The position numbers and the translations under genes were made by a program. A DNA stretch of 7,705 nucleotides, taken from assembly GCA_018260755.1 (NCBI GenBank), contig JAGTWP010000063.1:1-7705 (forward strand), given 5' to 3'. The notes under the pieces were generated by a model, which did no database searches, was not told where the DNA came from, and was given only the letters and a program-made list of their open reading frames with translations. The DNA is from Candidatus Altarchaeum sp. (GTDB lineage Archaea > Altiarchaeota > Altiarchaeia > Altiarchaeales > Altiarchaeaceae). This document shows, one piece after another, positions 3,692-4,841 of this stretch (within the stretch, counting starts at the first letter, position 1; every line of letters starts with the position of its first letter).

Positions 3692-3897
3692 ATGATAAAC
3701 AATCAATTGTTATTAAGCATATTTACAATGTAGAAACAAGAGCATTAAATCAAGCTGTTAGAAGAAACATTTAACTGTTTCCCGAAGATTTTGTGTTTTC
3801 ACTAACAAGAGAGGAGATAAGGAACTTATCACAATTTGTGATAGGTTCAAAAATAAAGCACGCCCCAAACGTATTTGTTTTTACCTAACAATGAGTA
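3692..3897 (+). pseudogene. decayed ORF6N-domain gene, paralogue of the next gene
   Basis: ATG 3692 begins MINNQLLLS, matching MDENQLVLS of the intact downstream gene. About 26 codons are then missing and the frame shifts. From 3724 it reads YNVETRALNQAVRRN, against YDVEVKVLNQAVKRN, then LFPEDFVFSLTREEIRNLSQ and APNVFVFT. Three stops interrupt the homologous frame: TAA 3772 at the position of Glu51, TAA 3886 at Glu93 and TGA 3892 at Gly95. Each is one G-to-T change from a Glu or Gly codon. The C-terminal part after FTEQGV is not recognisable. It is a clear pseudogene, but it retains a 12-of-13 palindrome at 3822-3848 at the same place as in the intact copy. Confidence 0.87.
3822..3848. repeat. 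27-nt palindrome (13+1+13) in the decayed ORF6N copy
   Basis: The left arm is GAACTTATCACAA (3822-3834), the centre is T 3835 and the right arm is TTGTGATAGGTTC (3836-3848). Twelve of 13 positions pair; the exception is T3826 against G3844, which would be a G-U wobble in RNA. It encodes NLSQFVIGS in the homologous frame and corresponds exactly to the palindrome of the intact gene, although its outer arms have a different sequence. Confidence 0.85.
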
Positions 3898-3923
3898 ACT
3901 GATCTTCCGGACATAAGAAAAAA

Positions 3924-3931
3924 TTTAAATA
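3924..3931 (+). promoter_or_regulatory. candidate TATA box for the ORF6N gene
   Basis: TTTAAATA is a very good match to the archaeal TATA consensus. It is centred about 26 nt upstream of ATG 3954, the spacing expected for a leaderless mRNA. This is the best promoter candidate in the window and favours ATG 3954 over the in-frame GTG at 3948. Confidence 0.55.
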
Positions 3932-3953
3932 AAATCTGGTTTGATGTGTGAAA

Positions 3954-4841
3954 ATGGATGAAAATCAATTAGTGTTAAGCACAGATAGTATCAAAAGTAA
4001 AATTTATACGATAAGGGGCATGCAGGTAATGATTGATGCAGATCTCGCAGAACTTTATGATGTAGAGGTAAAAGTATTAAATCAAGCCGTTAAAAGGAAT
4101 AGTGAAAGATTCCCTGAAAATTTCATGTTCCAATTAACTAAAAATGAATTCGAAACTTTAAGGTCACAATTTGTGACCTTAAACAAAGGACGTGGAGCTC
4201 ACAGAAAATATCTACCTTATGGGTTCACGGAGCAGGGAGTTGCAATGCTTTCAGGAGTTTTGAAAAGCGATACTGCCGTAAGAATAAGTATTCAAATAAT
4301 TAGCGCATTTGTTGCCATGAGAAAATTTATCTCCTCAAACACATGGATATTTCACAGATTAGAAATTGTAGAGGAAAAACAAATTGAATACGATAAAAAG
4401 TTTGAACTTGTATTTGATGCGATACAAAGCAAAGACATCAAGCCGGAAAAAGGCATATTTTTTGACGGCCAGATATTTGACGCATATAAATTCGTTTCGG
4501 ATATAATCAGAACTGCTAATAAATCCATAGTTCTCATTGATAATTACATTGATGATTCGGTTTTGACACTGTTTAGCAAGAGAAACAAAGATGTGCAGGT
4601 TACAATATTCACCAAAGATGTCTCAATGCAGTTATCTCTTGACTTGGATAAATACAATGCACAATATCCTCTTATCAAAGTAATAGAATTTAAGCAGTCC
4701 CACGACAGGTTTCTCATAATAGACAACAAAGAAGTGTACCATTTCGGAGCTTCATTAAAAGACATGGGTAAAAAATGGTTTGCATTTTCTAAATTTGATA
4801 AAGAAGCATTTAATCTATTGGATAGATTAGGGTTGAAATGA
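3954..4841 (+). CDS. ORF6N-domain DNA-binding protein with a C-terminal PLD-like domain, 295 aa
   Basis: Residues about 12-97 form an ORF6N domain (KilA-N-like group, known from phages, large DNA viruses and prokaryotic accessory genes). Its hallmarks are LAELYDVEVKVLNQAVKRN (31-49), RFPENFMFQLT (52-62) and LPYGFTEQGVAML (87-99). A helical, partly coiled linker follows (about 110-160). Residues about 172-285 resemble a phospholipase-D-like module: FDAYKFVSDIIRTANKSIVL, then H250-x-R252-x4-D257 and G265-A-S. This is an HKD-type motif in which Arg replaces Lys, and I see only one copy, so nuclease activity is doubtful. The role may be regulation or defence, but the target is unknown. A perfect 27-nt palindrome lies inside the ORF6N-coding part. 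A decayed paralogue lies directly upstream, and the pair splits the UDP-sugar genes. ATG 3954 is chosen over GTG 3948 from the TATA spacing. Confidence 0.85.
   Translation: MDENQLVLSTDSIKSKIYTIRGMQVMIDADLAELYDVEVKVLNQAVKRNSERFPENFMFQLTKNEFETLRSQFVTLNKGRGAHRKYLPYGFTEQGVAMLSGVLKSDTAVRISIQIISAFVAMRKFISSNTWIFHRLEIVEEKQIEYDKKFELVFDAIQSKDIKPEKGIFFDGQIFDAYKFVSDIIRTANKSIVLIDNYIDDSVLTLFSKRNKDVQVTIFTKDVSMQLSLDLDKYNAQYPLIKVIEFKQSHDRFLIIDNKEVYHFGASLKDMGKKWFAFSKFDKEAFNLLDRLGLK
4157..4183. repeat. perfect 27-nt palindrome (13+1+13) inside the ORF6N coding sequence
   Basis: The left arm is TTTAAGGTCACAA (4157-4169), the centre is T 4170 and the right arm is TTGTGACCTTAAA (4171-4183), with no mismatch. It encodes LRSQFVTLN, the segment between the RFPENF block and the LPYGFTEQG block. 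It could be a two-fold symmetric protein-binding site in DNA, or a strong RNA hairpin of 12 bp with a 3-nt loop. The matching palindrome in the decayed paralogue shares only the six inner positions of each arm. Confidence 0.95.

Follow-up and report, generated by a model that had tools for sequence, protein, structure and literature searches.

Why should two related genes carry, at the same codon, palindromes of identical geometry whose arms differ in sequence on both sides? The question is raised by a 7,705-nucleotide stretch of DNA from Candidatus Altarchaeum (hereafter the window), belonging to a source genome of 1.32 Mb in 78 contigs. A first-pass annotation, made from the letters alone, had placed both palindromes at the homologous codon, and their geometry is as it described: a perfect 13+1+13 palindrome at 4157..4183 (TTTAAGGTCACAA-t-TTGTGACCTTAAA, half-site TTGTGACCTTAAA) within an intact ORF6N gene, and a 12/13 palindrome with one G-T mismatch at 3822..3848 (GAACTTATCACAA-t-TTGTGATAGGTTC, half-site TTGTGATAGGTTC) within a decayed copy. 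The arm pattern also holds exactly as listed, with six inner positions identical, all seven outer positions different and the G-T pair as the single exception. We propose, with a probability of about 0.78 and in the absence of binding or expression data, that the palindrome is the cognate binding site for the gene's own ORF6N product and most likely serves as an intragenic operator through which the gene is autorepressed.

The intact gene (3948..4841, forward strand) encodes 297 amino acids from a GTG start, comprising an N-terminal ORF6N domain, predicted to be a winged HTH, and a C-terminal PLD-like domain. Its ORF6N membership is secure, as residues 17-104 match PF10543 with 122.1 bits against a curated cut-off of 27.8. 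An AlphaFold2 model built from 34 sequences, of moderate confidence (mean pLDDT 78, pTM 0.45), places HTH helices at residues 30-37 and 41-50 and wing strands at 60-62 and 91-93, and by prediction only the domain qualifies as a winged HTH of the KilA-N-like superfamily; a sequence search of the PDB found no relative of the ORF6N part. The predicted recognition helix (codons 41-50, VKVLNQAVKR; 4068..4097, forward strand) is where the covariation described below peaks, at residues 42, 43, 46 and 50, and contains the codon of the main specificity residue, Q46 (4083..4085, forward strand). The palindrome itself encodes T-LRSQFVTL-N, residues 70-79.

The PLD-like domain (residues 169-297; 4452..4838, forward strand) resembles TrmB/TrmBL2 and PLD folds by Foldseek; the top matches are the regulators TrmBL2 and TrmB, and even the best of them superpose poorly (rmsd 15-19 Å). 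It does not meet the catalytic PLD nuclease motif HxK(x)4D. H252, D253 and R254 are invariant in 34 aligned homologues, all of which have arginine at the position of the catalytic lysine of HxK, and this favours a regulator over a nuclease.

The decayed copy (3715..3891, forward strand) still scores 53.4 bits against PF10543 despite two internal TAA stops, and keeps a remnant of the recognition helix, TRALNQAVRRN (3736..3768, forward strand, in the frame from 3652), in which R replaces K42 while Q46 and R50 are retained. The closest match to the window protein comes from another Candidatus Altarchaeum (L003, 81% protein identity), an intact gene whose palindrome is identical to that of the decayed copy. 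As the relic's palindrome is present in an intact gene, the two window copies are old, separate lineages; the decayed copy is a degraded relative of the L003 gene, and the pair, which had been called paralogous, did not arise by recent duplication. Elsewhere in the window, positions 2600-2729, after the gene at 1736-2551, look noncoding and resemble a degraded repeat of the C-terminal end of that gene (GEYKFYVKTSFNAKERTKNVYFNITE versus GGYKFILEFSFNAKEKTKTLYFNVE).

Symmetry of the loop palindrome across the family

Our survey of archaea and several bacterial phyla brought together 232 distinct ORF6N domains, of which the 198 complete ones were scored. Under one fixed criterion, a palindrome was found in the loop of 193 of these, leaving five without a recognizable one; under the same criterion the count falls to 14 of 198 for stretches preceding the loop and 14 of 161 for those following the domain (7-9%). 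The position is tightly fixed: a single 25-nt bin contains 155 strong palindromes, and the rest of the domain has hardly any. The guess that the feature might be family-wide is thereby borne out by observation across many phyla. In two divergent phage-type ORF6N relatives (L206 and L213) the homologous place is taken by an unrelated palindrome, CGCTGTCCGAATTTCGGACAGCG.

Such symmetry might be a by-product of protein constraint or of chance, arising because a palindrome is what back-translation of LRSQ-x-VT happens to yield, and the conserved residues do by themselves supply some pairing, between the first bases of the Q and V codons and between those of S and T. In 144 LRSQ-type loops, however, pairing between the arms extends to 11.62 of 13 positions as against 5.85 (s.d. 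0.14) in synonymous resamples, and for the intact window site the full 13/13 pairing was reached in 1 of 20,000 such resamples. Codon choice on one arm, moreover, predicts non-synonymous change on the other: serine TCA is paired with valine GTG 67 times and TCG with alanine GCG 37 times, roughly nine cases being exceptions or pairs of another kind, and the cross-arm codon pairs further include leucine TTG with serine TCA (82 times), leucine TTA with leucine TTA (25) and tryptophan TGG with serine TCC (13). Two close pairs of genes (L133/L229 and L021/L022) each combine a synonymous change on one arm with the matching non-synonymous change (A/V, T/I) on the other. Finally, one DNA core, GGTCRCAAnTTGYGACC, serves two reading frames, encoding RSQ-x-VT in one and VTNCD in the other, so that different peptides keep the same DNA. 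Protein constraint or chance is left with practically no credibility by these observations, as the first-pass annotation had argued from the difference in residues at the outer codons of the two copies, and its claim of selection on nucleic-acid symmetry is upheld by pairing far above codon-shuffled controls. It had named two findings that would refute it, homologues with intact protein and no palindrome in most lineages, or symmetry no greater than in codon-shuffled sequences; neither was obtained.

Long, near-perfect dyad symmetry within a transcribed region is also what an mRNA hairpin would display, whether as a processing, translation or attenuation signal, and a hairpin had indeed been suggested. 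Against this, mismatches on the coding strand are no more often G·T than A·C (35 and 68, respectively, of 1846 pairs), and wobble positions avoid G·U as strongly as A·C. With no tolerance of G·U pairs the hairpin is unsupported, and since it would also leave the recognition-helix code unexplained, we regard it as highly improbable. The constraint is one on the DNA itself rather than on peptide or mRNA.

Recognition helix and half-site

Read outward from its centre, the half-site has the form n-T-G-n-n-A-n-n; the alignment columns of our mutual-information and code analyses are numbered one above the residue numbering of the window protein. Across 193 genes, and outside the loop itself, residues 43 and 46 share 1.11 and 1.17 of 1.49 bits with half-site position 4 (shuffled maximum, 0.27 bits), and further links join residue 46 to position 5, residue 42 to positions 7-8 and residue 50 to position 3, the order of the helix residues being collinear with that of the bases. 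Residue 46 predicts bases 4-5 in 179 of the 193 discovery genes (shuffled mean 70, maximum 91), with Q giving TG in 91/97, E giving CG in 61/64, R giving GC in 19/22 and K giving GA in 8/9; by reading frame, the prediction is correct for 132/143 in frame 0, 28/30 in frame 1 and 19/19 in the MVSQ class. At residue 50, R goes with G (180/181) and N with T (11/12), and at residue 42, K goes with CC in 112 discovery genes, with R accompanied by TA, TC or CA at positions 7-8. Glutamine usually pairs with adenine, glutamate with cytosine, arginine or lysine with guanine and asparagine with adenine, and the residue/base pairs of the ORF6N code agree with these known preferences (Q-A, E-C, R/K-G, N-A).

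Columns 48-70, which lie between the helix and the palindrome, carry no covariation above shuffle level, so short-range linkage is not the cause of the code and was ruled out as its source. A tree that leaves out helix and loop has 68 changes at residue 46 and likewise 68 at the base, and on it independent pairs of residue 46 and base 4 are never opposite, with agreement in 6/6 Q/E pairs on well-supported branches, of which there are only six. The code was then frozen before we turned to 98 new loci from two further phyla (Desulfobacterota and Planctomycetota, as named from genome titles). A palindrome was present in 86 of 90 complete new domains, and the frozen residue-46 code was correct in 80 of 82 (97.6%; shuffled mean 27, maximum 43), or 40/41 for Q, 15/16 for E, 15/15 for R and 10/10 for K; R50 was matched by G in 82/82 and K42 by CC in 46/47. 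Exceptions to the code thus amount to 14/193 genes in the discovery set and 2/82 among those held out. Given that a single helix residue predicts site bases in 97.6% of unseen cases, protein and site evolve together.

Both window copies can be read with this code. In the intact gene, helix VEVK42VLNQ46AVKR50N pairs with half-site TTGTGACC, and the site at 4157-4183 agrees with the prediction from K42, Q46 and R50, Q46 calling for TG at positions 4-5; in the decayed copy, helix VETRALNQAVRRN pairs with half-site TTGTGATA. The inner bases TGTGA are common to the two because Q46 and R50 are kept in both, and the outer bases are CC in the intact gene and TA in the relic because residue 42 is K in the former and R in the latter. 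The outermost half-site bases remain unexplained by helix residues and instead track residues 85-87 flanking the loop, to which they may be merely linked.

It is conceivable that the site has no connection with the ORF6N protein, being either the target of another factor, such as a recombinase, integrase or methylase, or a symmetry maintained by template-switch mutation, and near-perfect arms together with frequent duplication are compatible with replication-based correction. Neither version, however, predicts that a helix residue should specify bases of the site, nor the 80/82 result in held-out genes, and we find both scarcely credible. There is likewise no need for the diversification or recombination site that had been suggested, even if extra palindromes do accumulate in the loop.

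An operator for the gene's own product, by contrast with these, calls for a site in the coding region that matches the predicted specificity, and this is what is found: the loop palindrome fits the helix of its own gene in 182 of 189 cases, beside the held-out 80/82. The earlier suggestion of an intragenic ORF6N binding site with copy-specific sequence accordingly gains strong support from the code, physical binding by the gene's own protein being strongly inferred. In the inferred dimer, each subunit would place its recognition helix (residues 41-50) against one half-site, with R50 reading position 3, Q46 and V43 positions 4-5 and K42 positions 7-8. The putative operator would occupy the long wing loop, about 220 nt past the start codon, and as it lies within the coding sequence, bound protein would most likely halt transcription of its own gene, amounting to negative autoregulation; that the outcome is repression rather than some other self-directed action is inferred from position only. 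ORF6N genes occur in many contexts, and by inference an operator inside the coding sequence would let them repress themselves behind any promoter. When specificity changes, the helix residue and both arms shift together, non-synonymous changes in the loop included.

Sites outside the loop and in related families

Elsewhere, sites of this kind are rare. The exact core occurs 38 times in 247 Bacteroidota genomes (0 for a reversed control), and of 30 such loci that we inspected, 22 fall inside ORF6N domains, 6 beside them and 2 elsewhere; with core sites almost confined to ORF6N genes, the evident target of the protein is its own gene. The source genome (G000) holds no further copy of the core within one mismatch, and one other site with two mismatches. 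Among viral contigs, the protein query found no relative of the window protein, and the core pattern found sites mostly without ORF6N, which we took as chance background; in E. coli genomes there was no DNA-level match to two ORF6N domains.

This distribution bears on whether the palindrome is a selfish coding element, comparable to the Rickettsia palindromic elements (RPEs) or PARCELs, for which the loop is a tolerant point of insertion. Such an element would account for the two or three tandem palindromes in some loops, for palindromic units with loop-like flanks upstream of some genes and for the use of two reading frames. Yet exact cores are almost restricted to ORF6N genes and their surroundings (28 of the 30 Bacteroidota sites), the position is fixed in 193/198 domains and an inserted unit would not be matched to the recognition helix that its host encodes. 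With core sites confined to ORF6N loci and fitting the host helix, we rejected a mobile palindromic element as the primary explanation and consider it very improbable.

The one-gene, one-site operator that we favour is nevertheless too simple a scheme, because extra palindromes often misfit the helix of their own gene. About one loop in eight has two or three palindromes above threshold, in a few cases of mixed specificity. Additional ORF6N-type palindromes lie upstream of about 15% of genes and match the gene's own helix about as often as expected by chance (16/45), and we did not retain them as promoter operators, given that chance-level fit. These extra palindromes may serve cross-regulation, or they may be scars or intermediate stages in a change of specificity.

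Individual loci illustrate the variety. Tandem loop palindromes, each an LRSQ-like unit, are found in L004, L018, L024, L035, L037, L042, L056, L072, L175, L251 and others, and are of mixed specificity in L035 and L038. Upstream of the ORF6N gene at L256, four palindromes spaced 34 bp apart, each of a different type (E, K, Q and R), come after a truncated ORF6N gene. At eight loci (L022, L030, L053, L059, L071, L147, L019 and L251) the ORF6N gene lies either between hsdM and hsdS of a type I restriction-modification operon or next to them, and three genomes (G1032, G982 and G946) each have 8-10 ORF6N matches of diverse specificities.

It is also possible that the protein binds the palindrome and that its main use lies elsewhere, in silencing or otherwise acting on newly arriving ORF6N genes that share its specificity, much as in phage immunity, which would drive diversification. 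A patchy gene distribution with up to 10 genes per genome, the clustering of foreign-specificity palindromes upstream of ORF6N genes (E, K, Q and R at L256) and the frequency of specificity change (68 changes) all fit such a use. Paralogues in the same genome, however, show no significant avoidance of common half-sites (7 nt, p=0.56; at 11 nt, 2/122 pairs share one against 4.4 expected, p=0.16), and upstream sites are limited to the 15% or so of genes mentioned above. We consider this use unlikely, without dismissing it.

The arrangement extends to Phage_pRha genes (PF09669; L509-L538), with an apparent helix code of their own. The best palindromes all lie at 113-141 nt of the domain, which is the homologous place, and in 17 of 31 domains the palindrome is stronger than in any of 20 synonymous shuffles. 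In this small sample, with a few rows unresolved, the helix/site pairs are HxNVLR with TTTGA, HxDVLR with TTTGCG, HxNVLQ with TTTCAG and HKDVLE with TTTCCG; one Rha gene (L525) has two palindromes in tandem. Bro-N (PF02498; L539-L568) may have a weaker version of the feature, its best palindromes clustering at 115-142 nt and only 8 of 31 beating all shuffles. Two Bro-N genes (L564 and L565) have VTNC-type palindromes much like those of ORF6N.

From this a wider picture can be sketched, as a tentative possibility that we do not yet hold to be probable: a superfamily of mobile regulators (ORF6N, Rha and perhaps Bro-N) would carry its own operator in the wing of the DNA-binding domain, silencing itself behind any promoter as well as newcomers of the same specificity, while foreign sites upstream would let genes respond to other members. 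Each gene would thereby possess an address of its own, and the members would make up a network of competitors, each addressable by the others, diversifying in the manner of phage immunity types.

Relation to known regulators and palindromes

We know of no characterized DNA site for the ORF6N family, and a literature search that covered few subscription journals found little on ORF6N and no account of a site such as this one. The results point to the probable target site of a widespread DNA-binding family and yield a code that predicts its recognition. They describe a case in which coding sequence and the protein's DNA specificity are locked together, with amino acids of the wing loop dictated by operator symmetry, and they supply natural protein-site pairs for the study of how recognition specificity evolves, as well as a ready set of candidate self-repressing regulators of differing specificities.

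In overall build, the window protein is like TrmB and TrmBL2, its best Foldseek matches, in combining a winged HTH with a PLD-like domain, although no sequence relationship to them was found in the PDB search. In the placement of the site, the nearest parallel is with autorepressors such as E. coli purR, an autoregulated repressor with an operator inside its own coding region. Both have the regulator's site in their own coding sequence, for which negative autoregulation is the simplest use. The ORF6N site differs in its fixed place throughout a family spanning bacteria and archaea and in shaping the protein's own loop; it is, besides, the only core site found in the source genome, and it co-evolves with the recognition helix.

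Palindromic DNA that is translated in frame, with tandem copies in some genes, is shared with RPEs and PARCELs. RPEs are found in unrelated genes. PARCELs consist of tandem repeats of 25 amphipathic residues (PMC2996958). The ORF6N site, unlike either, is bound to one position, to one DNA-binding family and to the recognition helix of that family.

Cluster A mycobacteriophages have stoperators, repressor sites in transcribed regions that are proposed to halt elongation and whose variation is tied to superinfection immunity (PMC9283540). The ORF6N sites are like them in lying within transcribed regions; stoperators, however, are 13-mers without symmetry to which a monomer binds, number more than 20 per phage genome and lie in short intergenic spaces (PMC9283540), whereas the ORF6N site is a single palindrome in the regulator's own coding sequence. 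In the MerR family, mutual information between protein columns and site columns marks contacts between side chains and bases, the sites lying in target promoters (PMC5045206). ORF6N proteins resemble MerR in this covariation of specificity and depart from it in that the site is written into the coding sequence of the same gene.
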